A DNA stretch of 64,000 bases from Methylomarinum vadi (GTDB lineage Bacteria > Pseudomonadota > Gammaproteobacteria > Methylococcales > Methylomonadaceae), in NCBI RefSeq assembly GCF_000733935.1, contig NZ_JPON01000001.1:4104623-4168622 (forward strand), in the 5' to 3' direction. The position numbers were made by a program, and so were the translations under genes. Of this stretch, positions 32,284-53,213 are shown piece by piece. How positions within the stretch are numbered: the first letter of the stretch is position 1; each line of letters starts with the position of its first letter. The notes beneath the pieces are model-generated. The model searched no databases, was not told the origin of the DNA, and saw only the letters and a program-made list of their open reading frames with translations.

Positions 32284-34188
32284 ATGTCTTTATCGAAACA
32301 ACTGGTCATCCTTATTTCCTTGTTGTTTTTGCTGATATTCAGCATCAATTTTGTGTTGAGCGTCAGAAATATAAAGACCTATTTGGAAGGCGAGGCTTCC
32401 ATTCATGCCCAGGATACCGCCACATCGTTGGGCTTATCGTTGAGTCCTTATCTAAGGGACGAACAAGACCCCGTCATCGAAACGATGATCCAGGCCATAT
32501 TCGACCGGGGCTATTACCGGGAAATCCGCTTGGTCAATGTGGATGGCAAGGAATTGGTCGAGTTGCGCGATGACCAGCAGATAAAAGGCGTGCCGGAGTG
32601 GTTTATCGAATGGTTGCCGATGAAACTGGCCGAGGCGCAGAGCGAGATCAGCACCGGTTGGCAGGTGACGGGGACCGTATCGGTGACGGTCAATCCCGGT
32701 TATGCCTATCACAAACTCTATGAACAAGTAAAAAGCGCCTTTTATTATTCGGCTGCGGTTTTCGCGGCGGCGCTGATTTTGTTGCTTCTTGCCTTACGCA
32801 TGGCCTTGCGATCTTTAAAGCAACTCGAGCAACTGGCCGTGACGATTGCCGATGGCCATTTCAGCACGATCGATAACATTCCCTGGACCACCGAGGTCAG
32901 AAACCTGACTCAGGCGATGAACAGCATGTCGCAAAAGGTGGCTGCCATCATCGATAAGTTGCAGCTGAAACTGAAAGACATGGGCGATCAAATGCTGCGC
33001 GACGACTTGACCGGTTTGCATAAAAAGGAGGTCTTCGAAAACGATTTGCGACATTTGTTCATGGAAGATTCAGAGGCGTACATTTATATAGTCAAACTGG
33101 ATAGCTTGACCCGCTTTGTCAACGAACAAGGCTATGAAAAAGTCGATCGGTATATCCAGGACTTTGCCGAGTTGCTGGAAAATTGTTGCCGTCAATTACC
33201 CAAAGGAGTCGCCAATTGTTATCGTTTTTACGGAGCCGAATTCGTCATGTTGCTTAGAAGTGGCGATATCAACCAAGCTCGACAATGCGCCGAACAATTA
33301 AGCACGGAATTCGCCCGTTTCGGCCGACGCTATCAAAAAAACGATGTGGCCCATATCGGTGTGGCGCCGTATTGCGCCGTGACGACCGCGGATACCCTAT
33401 TGGAGTCTGCCTACGAAGCCTATGAACAAGCCAGAATCATCGGCAGTAACGGCTATTTCATCAGAACCAGTCAAAAACCGGCCCGCGATATTGCCGCCTG
33501 GAAAGAACTGGTGTTCGAATGCATCGATTTGAAACGCTATGAGCTGGAATTCGTCAGTCGTATCACCAGTTTTCATGACGATTGCCTGTTGATGGAAGAG
33601 GCCTTTACCCGTGCCTATGATGGCGAGGGCGAGCCGATCGCGATGGCGACCTTTATTTCCATCGCCGAAAAATTCGCCAAGATCGTCACGCTGGAAACCC
33701 AGGTGACCGATCAAGTATTGAGTTTTCTCTTGCAACGGCAATGCCGGCACGCGTTGGCCGTCAATCTGTCGACGCGCACGGTAAAAAGTGCCGAGTTTCG
33801 TGCCTGGTTGGGCAAGCGGTTGAAAAGCAGGCCCCAGGAAGCCGGCAAACTGGTGTTCAGTCTGACTGCCTATGCCGTCGCCAAGGAGGAGGACGTTTAT
33901 CGCGCATTCATAGAGTTCGTGCATGAATTGGGGGCCAAAGTGATTATCAAACGCCTCGACCCCCAGTCCATGTCCGTTTCATTGTGCAAGGCACTGAAAC
34001 CGGACTATATCCGTTTGGCCCGCGAGATCGGGCAGCATATCGATGAGGACCCGAAAAAACAGGCATTCGTCAAAACGCTGGCGGAAGTCAGCGAGCTGCT
34101 GAATATTACGCTGTTTGCCGAAGACGTCGCGGCCGAAGAGGATTGTGTCATCCTGAAGGGAATGGGAATTACCGGTGCCAGCCGCTAA
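32284..34188 (+). CDS. lapD: LapD-like cyclic di-GMP receptor with degenerate GGDEF and EAL domains
   Basis: 634-residue inner-membrane receptor. N-terminal helix (LVILISLLFLLIFSINFVL), a periplasmic LapD/MoxY-type domain (about 30-150, with the conserved Trp-rich loop near PEWFIEWLP), a second helix (about 155-175), a HAMP linker, then GGDEF-like and EAL-like domains. The active sites are degenerate: YGAEF in place of GGDEF, and the EAL motif replaced by MEEAF. LapD proteins are catalytically dead receptors that bind cyclic di-GMP and hold LapG away from its adhesin substrate. The gene overlaps lapG by 14 bp, confirming the pair. Confidence 0.9.
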   Translation: MSLSKQLVILISLLFLLIFSINFVLSVRNIKTYLEGEASIHAQDTATSLGLSLSPYLRDEQDPVIETMIQAIFDRGYYREIRLVNVDGKELVELRDDQQIKGVPEWFIEWLPMKLAEAQSEISTGWQVTGTVSVTVNPGYAYHKLYEQVKSAFYYSAAVFAAALILLLLALRMALRSLKQLEQLAVTIADGHFSTIDNIPWTTEVRNLTQAMNSMSQKVAAIIDKLQLKLKDMGDQMLRDDLTGLHKKEVFENDLRHLFMEDSEAYIYIVKLDSLTRFVNEQGYEKVDRYIQDFAELLENCCRQLPKGVANCYRFYGAEFVMLLRSGDINQARQCAEQLSTEFARFGRRYQKNDVAHIGVAPYCAVTTADTLLESAYEAYEQARIIGSNGYFIRTSQKPARDIAAWKELVFECIDLKRYELEFVSRITSFHDDCLLMEEAFTRAYDGEGEPIAMATFISIAEKFAKIVTLETQVTDQVLSFLLQRQCRHALAVNLSTRTVKSAEFRAWLGKRLKSRPQEAGKLVFSLTAYAVAKEEDVYRAFIEFVHELGAKVIIKRLDPQSMSVSLCKALKPDYIRLAREIGQHIDEDPKKQAFVKTLAEVSELLNITLFAEDVAAEEDCVILKGMGITGASR

Positions 34189-34834
34189 CCTCAAACACAG
34201 ACCGAGCCTCTTTCTGTTCGGCCTGCTATGGGCCTTGGTTGTGTCGGCGACGTTGGAAGTCAGCCAGGCGCTGTTGGAGAGTTTGCGGCAAAAATACGGA
34301 CAGCCGGCGGCCGAACGCGTGCAAGAGTGGCAAAAGTTGATGCAGACGGCGAAAGAATTGCCGGAACCGGAAAAGTTGCGCATCGTAAACGATTTTTTCA
34401 ATCGCCGGCTTCGCTTCGTCGACGACAGCGATTTATGGGGTAAATTGGATTATTGGGCGACACCGGTGGAATTTTTGGCACGGGGGGCCGGCGATTGCGA
34501 GGACTATAGCATCGCCAAATATTTCACCTTGAAGGAATTGGGCGTGCCGGAAGACAAAATGCGCCTGACCTACGTCAAGGCGATCCGGCTCAATCAAGCG
34601 CACATGGTGTTGACTTATTTTGCCGCCCCGCGCGCCGTGCCGATGGTGCTGGATAATTTGATTCCGAGCATAGAAACGGCCGATCGAAGGACGGACCTGC
34701 TGCCGGTCTACAGTTTTAACGGTATCGGCTTGTGGCTGGCGAAAAAACGCGGCCACGATCGCCTAGTGGGTAATTCCGACCGTCTGGATTTGTGGTCTCA
34801 ACTGAAACAACGCATGCTGGAACAATCGTTTTGA
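34175..34834 (+). CDS. lapG: LapG-like periplasmic transglutaminase-fold cysteine protease
   Basis: 219-residue BTLCP protease. In the Lap system LapG cuts the N-terminus of a giant adhesin and releases cells from a surface unless LapD sequesters it. A signal peptide (LFLFGLLWALVVSATLEVS) follows a GTG start. The catalytic triad is C108 in GAGDCEDYS, H143 in NQAHMVL and D160 in VLDNL, with spacing close to known LapG. The overlap with lapD implies coupled translation. The substrate adhesin and its type I secretion genes are not in the window. Confidence 0.92.
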   Translation: MPAANLKHRPSLFLFGLLWALVVSATLEVSQALLESLRQKYGQPAAERVQEWQKLMQTAKELPEPEKLRIVNDFFNRRLRFVDDSDLWGKLDYWATPVEFLARGAGDCEDYSIAKYFTLKELGVPEDKMRLTYVKAIRLNQAHMVLTYFAAPRAVPMVLDNLIPSIETADRRTDLLPVYSFNGIGLWLAKKRGHDRLVGNSDRLDLWSQLKQRMLEQSF

Positions 34835-44678: not shown

Positions 44679-46456
<1,778 letters not shown>

Positions 46457-46481
<25 letters not shown>

Positions 46482-48956: not shown

Positions 48957-49850
48957 TTAGCTACCTTCTTGATCAGCGCGATCATAAAAGCGTTGCAAAG
49001 ATGCTTGAGGGCCCTCGATATCCGACATAGCCATGGCTGTACATAGTAAAGTGGCATTGTCGGCTGAACCGTTTCGACCCACGTCATTATCATTGTCAAC
49101 TCTAAAGATTGCCACAAAACGGTTGTAACGGTTGTTCGCATTCATCGCGCCGACTTGAGCGAAATGAACCGGCGCTTGCTGTATAGTGCGTCCAATCATG
49201 TCACTTTCAGGTCCCACTCCCAACATGACATAGATGTTATCTACCGTGCCGTCACCATCTGTGTCAGCGGCAGCATTTTGGATGCCACAGATGTGTTCAA
49301 CGTTGTTAATTCCGGGATTAGCAATAGCAGCCGCAGTAGCAGCGGCTTCATCAGGATGAACAGTTAATAAAAAATCAGTCGCAGCCGGCGCTACACCATT
49401 AATAGCTCCCATCATGTTTATGGCCCAATCGCCTGTGCTGTCGTTATAGTTGAATGTTGGATTGAATGCAGTGCAGTCGGCATCCGCGGCATCATCGCAC
49501 ATGCCTCTGAGCGAGGTAATCCCGGCTCTGAATAAAGATTGTGTGTTTGTTGCATTAACGTTAACTGGCGCAACAATTGCGTTATTCATCAAATAACTTG
49601 TTGCAGCACCCGTCGAATCGATCAGTCTGTCTAGGTTTCCTGGATATCCTTGATATTTGGCGTCATAGCCTGCAATTGCTTTAGCAACCTCTGCTAAGCT
49701 ATCGGCGCCGGATGAGTCATGAGTACGGCCGACAAAACCGCCGACATAAGGAATCAATAGACCGGCCAAACCGACCAACACCAGCAGGACGACGGTCAAT
49801 TCAATTAAGGTCATACCCGCTTGGCGGGCCATCTTGTTATAATGTTTCAT
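48957..49850 (-). CDS. Large prepilin-like protein (297 aa), sigma-54-driven
   Basis: Type IV prepilin-like protein. Short positive leader (KMARQAG) then the processed N-terminus MTLIELTVVLLVLVGLAGLLIPYV, with Glu at mature position 5; cleavage would be after Gly12. The rest is a globular domain of about 270 residues, Ala/Asn/Asp-rich, with five Cys and an Asp-rich possible calcium loop (DTDGDGTVDN) near the middle. At 297 residues it is about twice a normal pilin. Its sequence start is very like the 260-residue prepilin at 53277 (MTLMELTVVLLILIALAGLAIPYVGG). Transcription probably begins at the sigma-54 promoter at 50046-50061. Confidence 0.92.
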   Translation of the reverse strand: MKHYNKMARQAGMTLIELTVVLLVLVGLAGLLIPYVGGFVGRTHDSSGADSLAEVAKAIAGYDAKYQGYPGNLDRLIDSTGAATSYLMNNAIVAPVNVNATNTQSLFRAGITSLRGMCDDAADADCTAFNPTFNYNDSTGDWAINMMGAINGVAPAATDFLLTVHPDEAAATAAAIANPGINNVEHICGIQNAAADTDGDGTVDNIYVMLGVGPESDMIGRTIQQAPVHFAQVGAMNANNRYNRFVAIFRVDNDNDVGRNGSADNATLLCTAMAMSDIEGPQASLQRFYDRADQEGS

Positions 49851-50034
49851 GTAGGGTTTCTCCCCGTATTCTCGTTAGTTAATGGTTTAAGTGACCCTAA
49901 CGAAGTCACTGCCCTTAGCTGTACCAGAGCGCCCGGCAGTGGGGGGGAAGCCCTTCCCCCATGTTCGTGACTCTCCTCCCGTTACGGCCGGTCCCGGCCG
50001 TGTCTCATCCCTGAGGCGAACGAACTTGTTAGAC
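49851..50034 (-). promoter_or_regulatory. Structured 5' leader of the prepilin gene (candidate riboswitch)
   Basis: About 184 nt between the predicted start of transcription and the ATG. In RNA order: hairpin ACGGCCGG/CCGGCCGT (49984-50001), hairpin GGGGGAAG/CTTCCCCC (49943-49960), long stem CACTGCC/GGCAGTG (49907-49941), hairpin GTGAC/GTCAC (49891-49909). The last two share bases 49907-49909 and so exclude each other. The loop of the last hairpin (49897-49903) can pair with TCGTTAG (49872-49878) just before the Shine-Dalgarno GGGGAGA (about 49859-49865), a pseudoknot that could mask it. I do not recognise a known riboswitch consensus. Confidence 0.55.
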
Positions 50035-50045
50035 GGTTGATATAT

Positions 50046-50061
50046 AGCAGAGACCGTGCCA
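50046..50061 (-). promoter_or_regulatory. Sigma-54 (RpoN) promoter of the 297-aa prepilin gene
   Basis: On the minus strand TGGCACGGTCTCTGCT: a perfect -24 box TGGCAC and a -12 box CTGCT at the correct spacing (consensus TGGCAC-N5-TTGCW). Transcription would start about 12 nt downstream, near 50034. Sigma-54 control is well known for type IV pilin genes and requires an enhancer-binding activator, not present in the window. Confidence 0.85.
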
Positions 50062-50742
50062 ACAAGTTAACTCGCTGTTTTTGTTGAGCGAACAATGCTT
50101 GAGGTTGCCCAGAAATATAAAAAACTGTGTGAAATAACCTATTTCAGCTGCGGCATATCCCGCATTTTTGCCGTTGCTCGTCGAATGCTAGCGCCTAAGT
50201 AGCTTGTACCCTGCGGGTAAAACCCATCAAGGCTTTATAACCGGTAATCAGCCCGCAGTAGAAACAGGGCGTCAGCGACACCGATCAAGGCCGGCTGAAA
50301 TTTCCGTCGCCTTACCCCTTCCTTTCCAATTTAACCGGCGAAAAGAGTCCGTCAAGTTCTCCCTAGGAACTGGTCGTAAATTATTTTCCAGCGGCCGTTC
50401 TCGCGCTCCGGAGGTTGCCATAAAAGCCAGACTGTAGGTTGGGTTAGCGCAGCGTAACCCAACATAATCAAAAAGATACCTTTTATTACATTCGGTTCGC
50501 CATCCCTTTTCGACATTCTCCTCTCCGGGAGAGGAACGTTACGGTCTAGGTTACGATGCAGAATAGGGTATCTACATCGGGAAGTTATTGTTTGCCAAAT
50601 TCTGAGTGAAATAAGGCAGGACAAATGCTGGAGCTAAAGCGAAGCTTGCGTACCTGCCAAAATCCTGTGACCCCATCATTTATGCTTGGATTGCTTCATG
50701 GGTATATTTATTGCTTAAATGTTTTAATTTTTTGCTCAATCG
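50062..50742. other. Intergenic region between divergent prepilin genes
   Basis: About 680 bp without a supported gene. It should contain the activator site for the sigma-54 promoter and the promoter of the plus-strand prepilin gene. A palindrome GTTGGGTTA/TAACCCAAC (50438-50463, loop GCGCAGCG) is a dispersed-repeat-like unit. No good Shine-Dalgarno precedes the ATG at 50743. Confidence 0.5.
50438..50463. repeat. REP-like palindrome
   Basis: GTTGGGTTA-GCGCAGCG-TAACCCAAC, perfect 9-bp arms. Resembles the arms of the elements at 52123 and 52547 in size and in style but not in sequence. Confidence 0.55.
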
Positions 50743-52116: not shown

Positions 52117-52964
52117 AGCAAGGTAGGATGGGTAGAGGCGATAGCCGAAACCCATCAGTCTGATACAGGTTGATGTCCTGGATAAACGATGGGTTTCGCG
52201 TTGCTCTACCCATCCTACACTTCTGTAAATACATGTCATATAGGTGGGTCGTATGACCAATTACCGACGATTGAGAATTGAGGGAGGGTGTTATTTTTTT
52301 ACCGTGGCGTTGTATGATCGGCGTTCGAAGCTATTGGTCGATCATGTCGATGAATTGAGGGTGGCTTTTGCCGAGGTGAAAAAACGACATCCGTTCCACG
52401 TCGATGCGATCGTGATTCTGCCGGAGCATTTGCATTGTATCTGGACGTTGCCCGATGGCGATTGCGATTTTTCCATGCGTTGGCGCCAGATCAAAGCGGA
52501 ATTTTCGAGGCAGTTGCCGTCGATTGATGCAAGGTCGGGCAGCAAGGTAGGATGGGTAGAGGCGATAGCCGAAACCCATCAGTTTGATACAGGTTGATGT
52601 CCTGGATAAACGATGGGTTTCGCGTTGCTCTACCCATCCTACACTTCTGTAAATACATGTCATATAGGTGGGTCGTATGACCAATTACCGACGATTGAGA
52701 ATTGAGGGAGGGTGTTATTTTTTTACCGTGGCGTTGTATGATCGGCGTTCGAAGCTATTGGTCGATCATGTCGATGAATTGAGGGTGGCTTTTGCCGAGG
52801 TGAATAGACGGCACCCGTTCCACATCGATGCGATCGTGATTCTGCCGGAGCATTTGCATTGTATCTGGACGTTGCCCGATGGCGATTGCGATTTTTCCAT
52901 GCGTTGGCGTCAGATCAAAGCAAATTTTTCGAGGCAATTGCCGTCGATTGATGCAAGGTCGGAC
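52117..52964 (+). repeat. 424-bp tandem duplication of REP pair plus 5' RAYT
   Basis: Two head-to-tail units, 52117-52540 and 52541-52964, differing at only a few positions. Each holds an inverted REP pair (GTAGGATGGGTAGAG ... CTCTACCCATCCTAC at 52123-52218 and 52547-52642) and the first part of a RAYT transposase gene. Unit 1 ends where the RAYT frame is cut; unit 2 runs on into the complete gene. A single REP arm follows the gene at about 53215-53245. Confidence 0.85.
52253..52540 (+). pseudogene. Truncated RAYT transposase (first copy)
   Basis: First 96 codons of the REP-associated transposase with the HxH motif (PEHLHCIW), then joined to the next REP unit, where the frame runs into unrelated sequence. 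It lacks the Tyr motif HVDYIHYNP. A product of the tandem duplication. Confidence 0.85.
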
Positions 52965-53213
52965 AGTCGGGAGAAAAAAGGGGAGCGCGGAATTTGGCAG
53001 CGGCGTTTTTGGGAGCATGCGATTCGGGACGAGACCGATTTTCAACGTCATGTGGATTATATTCATTACAATCCGGTCAAGCATGGTTGGGTATCGCGGG
53101 TAGTCGATTGGCCTTATTCCTCTTTTATGAAGTTTGTCAAACAGGGTTTTTATCCGGCGAATTGGGGAGTGGATCATAGCGATAAAAAATTGGATATTTG
53201 GGAGTATATCTAA
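52677..53213 (+). CDS. REP-associated tyrosine transposase (RAYT), intact
   Basis: 178-residue Y1 HUH transposase of the REP-associated class. It has MTNYRRLRIEGGCYFFTVAL, the HUH pair in ILPEHLHCIWTLPDGDCDF, the RWRQIK strand, the RRFWEHAIRD segment and the catalytic Tyr in HVDYIHYNPVKHG. I take the ATG at 52677 over the GTG at 52668. REP arms of the matching sequence lie on both sides, as expected for the sequences it acts on. It sits between two prepilin genes that were probably adjacent before insertion. Confidence 0.92.
   Translation: MTNYRRLRIEGGCYFFTVALYDRRSKLLVDHVDELRVAFAEVNRRHPFHIDAIVILPEHLHCIWTLPDGDCDFSMRWRQIKANFSRQLPSIDARSDSREKKGERGIWQRRFWEHAIRDETDFQRHVDYIHYNPVKHGWVSRVVDWPYSSFMKFVKQGFYPANWGVDHSDKKLDIWEYI

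Follow-up and report, generated by a model that had tools for sequence, protein, structure and literature searches.

A conserved structured leader RNA between a sigma-54 box and a prepilin gene of methanotrophs, a candidate translational switch

Results

A prepilin gene with a sigma-54 box

The window, that is the whole stretch of 64,000 nucleotides analysed here, comes from the 4.3 Mb genome of Methylomarinum vadi (G000). The features that concern us all lie on its minus strand and are given in the order in which they would be transcribed.

50047..50062 (-), sigma-54 (RpoN) box TTGGCACGGTCTCTGC, from the sequence and from similar boxes in 24/24 leader copies
49851..50036 (-), structured leader RNA of ~185 nt, delimited with covariance model R1
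50023..50032 (-), conserved 5′ element CUAACAAGUU, with candidate partner ACUUCGUUAG (49906-49897, helix P0)
49963..50021 (-), P1/P2 domain: P1 arms 50021-50017 / 49967-49963, P2 hairpin 50001-49984
49943..49960 (-), PB hairpin GGGGGAA-GGGC-UUCCCCC, from covariation
49943..49953 (-), anti-Shine-Dalgarno strand GGGCUUCCCCC (PB loop and 3′ arm), pairing with 49865-49854 in the alternative helix PS
49907..49941 (-), P3 hairpin: inner stem P3b 49930-49928 / 49920-49918, 7-nt loop CUGGUAC
49872..49903 (-), P4 hairpin UCGUUAG/CUAACGA, immediately upstream of the Shine-Dalgarno (SD)
49854..49865 (-), SD region GGGGAGAAACCC, from the sequence, conserved among relatives
48957..49850 (-), ORF of a 297-aa prepilin weakly resembling GspG, the gene presumed to be under leader control

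A first reading of this DNA, made from its letters only, had proposed a near-perfect RpoN promoter and a structured leader upstream of the prepilin gene, and both are borne out. At 50062-50047 (-), as in every leader copy compared (24/24), there is a TGGCAY-N5-TTGC-like box at a near-constant distance, 18-21 nt upstream of a conserved AAGUU-like 5′ element, which is what is expected of a sigma-54 promoter. The boxes of 23 copies were called by a regular expression and that of G203, whose first letter differs, separately; G177 and G185 have TGGC where TTGC is expected. From the usual spacing between a sigma-54 box and its start, the transcript is predicted to begin near 50036, and the prepilin gene would be transcribed from this box. 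A sigma-70 scan of 49700-50300 returned no promoter-like site. Rho-independent attenuation was dropped as an explanation, since a terminator scan found no terminator-like site within the leader.

The prepilin itself bears a weak resemblance to the GspG pseudopilin (21.4 bits, for a cut-off of 88.85). Its neighbourhood encodes secretin-like and PilC/GspF-like proteins, a PilB/GspE-like ATPase with PilZ and MshEN, and two more prepilin-like ORFs, the NCBIfam matches to the named secretin, PilC/GspF and PilB/GspE families falling below curated cut-offs. Because of the secretin-like, PilC/GspF-like and ATPase neighbours, the prepilin is probably a component of a type IV pilus or of a type II secretion-like machine. 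In the ATPase (44679-46481) the PilZ domain is N-terminal and is accompanied by MshEN; both domains are linked to cyclic di-GMP. LapD-like and LapG-like genes, both below curated cut-offs, adjoin at 32284-34834. Between the prepilin genes, at 52244-53213, a small ORF (MGRMTNYRRLRIEGG...) that looks transposase-like by eye occurs twice in nearly identical form.

Distribution of the leader

R1, a covariance model built from 14 leaders, gave one significant match in the window, the leader, and a second match with E 1.1. At E<1e-10 it matched 23 of the 311 genomes of the order, which belong to 10 genera of one methanotroph family, and at E<=0.01 it matched 28/311; weak matches are those in G119, G225 and G216 (E 0.004-0.009). 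Nine of the 23 strongly matched genomes lie outside the model (G005, G033, G074, G075, G076, G118, G177, G203 and G246). The 24th leader copy, L100, was found on a contig binned as Nitrospirae that carries a methanotroph leader and prepilin, which is likely a mis-binning. Among 369 genomes drawn from the class, a second model, R2, gave strong matches in G000 and G015 only, and we take its weak matches in G330 (2.1e-4 per genome) and G666 (9.6e-4 per genome) as due to chance. The locus is present in Methylotuvimicrobium buryatense 5G and in Methylobacter species, the named carriers, all methanotrophs, including M. buryatense 5G, Methylobacter marinus, M. luteus, Candidatus Methylobacter titanis and the Gigantopelta aegis endosymbiont. 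Two pattern matches (L085 and L088) were rejected, as the leader structure was not seen in them by eye, and L075 appeared by eye to be a chance match to a perfect hairpin.

A homologous prepilin lies downstream of 22 of the 24 leader copies. In G185 the leader is followed by a repeat and a secretin-like fragment (by eye) with no homologous prepilin, and in G197 it stands upstream of another secreted-looking protein. With BLASTN, the last 120 nt of the leader matched 15/237 genomes of the family, the window's own among them, the other 14 at 76-90% DNA identity (local, some partial). Prepilin matches, found in 32/237, gave access to more divergent leaders: the leader is present in 21 of these 32 genomes, and among the 11 others G004 is cut at a contig end while G092 and G166 have a variant leader. 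Thirteen homologous prepilins are 31-44% identical to that of the window; their N-terminal helix is nearly invariant. In the eight genomes common to both sets, the leader DNA (76-90% identity) is better conserved than the prepilin protein (31-44%), which points to strong selection on the RNA control of the prepilin.

Departures from the common arrangement were also seen. The variant leader found upstream of homologous prepilins in L032, L034 and L105 is without a recognised sigma-54 box and consists of a GGGYGGG-loop-CCCGCC hairpin, a 7-bp P3 and the SD GAGGAAACCC; R2 scores 16.7 bits on both L034 and L105, apparently one and the same locus, and does not match L032, and the PB/PS complementarity described below is retained in these variants. 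In G005, the Gigantopelta endosymbiont, ~1.3 kb with a transposase-like ORF (by eye) splits the leader into two pieces (L006 and L007), which have 12 matched leader bases in common, a possible target-site duplication. The leader or its 5′ part was moreover found upstream of genes for other proteins that by eye look secreted, in G177 (L081/L089), G091 (L076) and G197 (L021/L064), accompanied in G177 and G197 by the sigma-54 box, as if promoter and 5′ domain had been re-used before such genes.

Five helices are conserved through compensatory changes

The fold of the window leader taken alone is mildly unusual (z -1.97; 8/200 shuffles equally good), and the case for structure rests on the homologues rather than on the single sequence. 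The covariation check that had been proposed as a way to refute the structure was run on them and did not refute it. In A1, a sequence-only alignment of 14 rows in which 29 pairs were assessed, 95.1% of cells are paired, compared with 36-46% in slid controls, and nine pairs show double changes, compared with 4.0 in shuffles (0/500 reach nine); further pair types are not in excess (17 vs 16.2, a value reached by 204/500 shuffles). Among 22 model-fitted rows, 18 of the 29 pairs are doubly changed vs 8.9 in shuffles, and the observed value beats all 500 shuffles on each of five measures, a result that leans toward the model because the alignment was fitted to it. A tree-aware test (23 rows, 2000 draws) placed P1, PB, P3, P3b and P4 each above the null (p<=0.0035), with a bias in favour of pairing since the arms were registered by hand. 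An R-scape-style pairwise test of 14 sequences found 0/38 pairs at E<0.05, which we attribute to the sequences being few and highly conserved. A conserved covarying structure upstream of the gene, as looked for in riboswitches, is therefore found by the alignment and tree tests and not by the single-pair test.

The five helices P1, PB, P3, P3b and P4 are conserved through compensatory changes. In P1, 111/115 cells are paired with 6 compensatory branches, and four of the five pairs show double changes. The corresponding values are 151/161 and 4 for PB (p 0.0035), 152/161 and 18 for P3, 69/69 and 5 for P3b, and 147/161 and 6 for P4; P3b occurs as GCU/AGC, GAU/AUC, GGU/ACC, ACG/CGU and GAG/CUC. 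P2, of varying length, was judged by eye only. The internal loop of the P1/P2 domain is purine-rich and contains GGGA and AGGAG, and conserved unpaired bases are found in the P1-P2, P3b and P4 loops. A long-range helix P0 between the 5′ element and its candidate partner is a possibility, which covariation does not support (179/207 cells paired, 0 compensatory branches); P0 would exclude P4.

The hairpins of the leader fared unequally. PB, P3 (49907-49941) and P4 stand by covariation and P2 by eye, but the hairpin that the sequence-only reading placed at 49891-49909 lacks conservation: 10, 3, 4, 10 and 13 of 14 sequences keep its five pairs. The exclusive elements found here are PB and PS, not the two stems proposed in that reading, 49907-49941 and 49891-49909. 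Likewise TCGTTAG, just before the SD, was correctly seen to pair, but it does so in the conserved nested hairpin P4 (49903-49872) and not in a pseudoknot. On the whole the earlier observation holds and is stronger than was claimed, though it is confirmed in part.

PB and PS would compete for the same strand

The strand made up of the PB loop and 3′ arm (GGGCUUCCCC) shows complementarity to the SD region and its CCC tail (GGGGAGAAACCC), the PB 5′ arm itself resembling the SD region as an anti-anti-SD would. The resulting helix, PS, is made of GGG/CCC, UUC/GAA and CCCC/GGGG, interrupted by a single mismatch and a single bulge, and the window leader contains it when folded to minimum energy. Since some nucleotides belong to both PB and PS, only one of the two can form. 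The PS duplex is available, at -8.6 to -20.7 kcal/mol, to each of the 23 leaders that possess an SD, two of which are variant leaders; L018 and L021 are without an SD site.

In computed folds, the mean energy difference between ON-like and OFF-like states is +1.1 kcal/mol, with values between -5.3 and +7.2. They are at most 3.5 kcal/mol apart in 18 of 21 leaders, 15 of these 18 forming both helices. PB keeps 5 or more pairs in the ON-like folds of 20/21 leaders, and in the OFF-like folds of 19/21 the PB stretch makes 8 or more pairs with the SD region; three leaders (L012, L013 and L035) give computed states without the intended helix.

The covariation of PS is modest. Own partners beat permuted ones with p 0.0002 when 15 types, close relatives among them, are compared; over 9 lineages the exact p is 0.0065, and 0.11 without L035 and L032, and in just 2 of the 9 is the own SD the best partner. 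In all four leaders of the genus g29, a U to A change in the PB 3′ arm creates an A-A mismatch that breaks the PB pair, and the change of GAAACC to GUAACC beside the SD matches it, so that PS is kept; this holds in the hand register, three of the four g29 rows being out of PS register in the fitted alignment. A caveat on PS is that a G-rich SD is bound by any C-rich strand: in 7 leaders, mononucleotide shuffles equal the observed best SD partner with p from 0.000 to 0.074. As an expression platform of exclusive, SD-hiding helices, the pair is backed by its energies and complementarity, with modest covariation.

Discussion

Between a sigma-54 box and a prepilin gene, a family of methanotrophs has kept an RNA structure in which one strand is complementary both to the PB 5′ arm and to the SD region. 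We consider that this is a conserved cis-acting leader RNA of a new family that acts as a translational on/off switch for the prepilin, with a probability of roughly 0.62. In the ON state, the anti-SD strand (GGGCUUCCCC) would be tied up as the loop and 3′ arm of PB, so that ribosomes could reach GGGGAGAAACCC. In the OFF state, this strand would pair with the SD region as PS, enclosing P3 and P4. The P1/P2 domain and the P3b loop, with their conserved unpaired bases, are the likely site where a signal would shift the balance. That both states occur in cells, and the direction of the regulation, we infer.

Three rival explanations were weighed. The leader could simply be structured for message stability or for steady high translation, PS being a by-product of C- and G-rich stretches. 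The modest PS covariation fits this, as does the want of a known trigger; on the other hand, both exclusive helices still pair across divergent lineages, and the g29 leaders compensate in PS while PB is broken. We hold such a leader to be rather unlikely, though a serious contender. The finding that the leader and the prepilin N-terminus are far more similar than the protein body, and that leader pieces also lie upstream of other genes, would suit a recently spread DNA cassette of promoter, leader and prepilin start, devoid of RNA function. However, many compensatory changes are retained on divergent backgrounds, and because of this covariation we regard the cassette as most improbable. Attenuation by a leader peptide, read from the AUG of AUGGGGGAAGGG, could invoke the AGGAG and AUG upstream of PB in the window; this AUG is found by script in 13/23 leaders, and by eye in L021, and the frames downstream of it diverge, which leaves the proposal barely credible.

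As to what would move the proposed switch, the alternatives concern the trigger. Under a reading that we offer as tentative, the leader is an orphan riboswitch class of one methane-oxidising family, whose P1/P2 domain and P3b would bind a small signal, say a cyclic dinucleotide or a one-carbon metabolite, and move the strand between PB and the SD; the sigma-54 pilus gene would therefore be gated twice, in transcription and in translation. A small-ligand trigger is possible, with the conserved unpaired bases of the P1-P2, P3b and P4 loops as candidate contacts. The protein CsrA/RsmA, an unlikely trigger in our view and one compatible with the switch, would bind the GGA motifs of the P1-P2 internal loop (CARGGAWG, AGGAG) and shift the PB/PS balance or block the SD. 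The gene csrA is present in 10/10 genomes tested, but it is very widespread. The motif CARGGAWG, found in 10/23 leaders, is close to RUACARGGAUGU, the SELEX-derived CsrA consensus in the part of PMC7652899 drawn on here, where RsmA/CsrA are also described as acting on SD-masking structures of psl, phz2 and ymdA. Against CsrA, most leaders contain about as many GGA as their shuffles do (6 vs 6.6 in the window), and the GGA near position 29 is missing in L033 and L042 and displaced in L014. The sequence-only reading had hesitated between a translational riboswitch and a thermosensor. The leader does look like a translational switch, but thermosensing is not favoured by the models. An RNA thermometer, in which heat would melt PS or a small GGG/CCC hairpin over the SD, could draw on the partly masked SD of the models and on the predicted SD exposure from 25 to 50 C, which rises from 0.43 to 0.82 in L036, from 0.39 to 0.82 in L039 and from 0.22 to 0.40 in the window; the predicted shift is nevertheless below 0.15 in the other 18/21 leaders, and the helices are strong and GC-rich. 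We judge it very improbable.

In our view, the surface filaments of methanotrophs are poorly understood. If the leader binds a ligand, that ligand would reveal what these bacteria sense while building a filament.

A new cis-regulatory RNA had been suspected at this locus, and comparison with known families supports it. No Rfam 15 family reaches its gathering score on the window, nor its threshold on 21 leader copies; at E<=10 the leader matches no bacterial family, and two animal/trypanosome RNA families match the other strand only. When the loci of 20 relatives were scanned by E-value, 17 matches came up, all below gathering score, one of them on a leader. We found no description of this leader among the best matches in the open-licence PMC literature.

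Among known systems, sigma-54-driven pilin genes such as pilA of Pseudomonas come close in their promoter. The pilE gene of commensal Neisseria also has an RpoN box upstream of a pilin-type gene, but differs in that the opening of the abstract on it does not mention a structured switch leader. The one family match on a leader is to Methylobacterium-1 RNA (RF01712; L072, 1558-1655 (-), on the leader strand), at 30.5 bits for a gathering score of 40; the order of elements is similar (GGA, GGGA hairpin, long hairpin), and RF01712 matched none of the other 7 of 8 genomes tested. Methylobacterium-1 RNA is classed as not cis-regulatory in the table row of PMC2864571, as we understand that row. With the CsrA/RsmA-controlled leaders of psl, phz2 and ymdA, as presented in the cited portion of PMC7652899, ours shares SD masking and GGA motifs. 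It differs from them in that the anti-SD strand also makes a competing, covarying hairpin, and in that its CsrA site is putative. With cyclic di-GMP riboswitches it shares a context, the nearby genes resembling cyclic di-GMP receptors (the LapD-like gene at 32284-34188, 304 bits and below the curated cut-off, and the MshEN/PilZ ATPase). These riboswitches are known as GEMM-I, c-di-GMP-II and a cGAMP variant; the sequence-only reading had seen no GEMM consensus here, and indeed the covariance models of the family do not match the window leader or L052 even at E<=10. There is a likeness, too, with translational riboswitches, whose general design opposes anti-SD and anti-anti-SD platforms. Our leader resembles them in its exclusive helices, which would mask or release the SD, and in the conserved unpaired bases of its folded upstream domain, but it is without an Rfam match at threshold, and any ligand of this candidate switch is putative. 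We accordingly see in it a new family of leader RNA, conserved in its structure, which would regulate the prepilin by a translational switch of a type already known.
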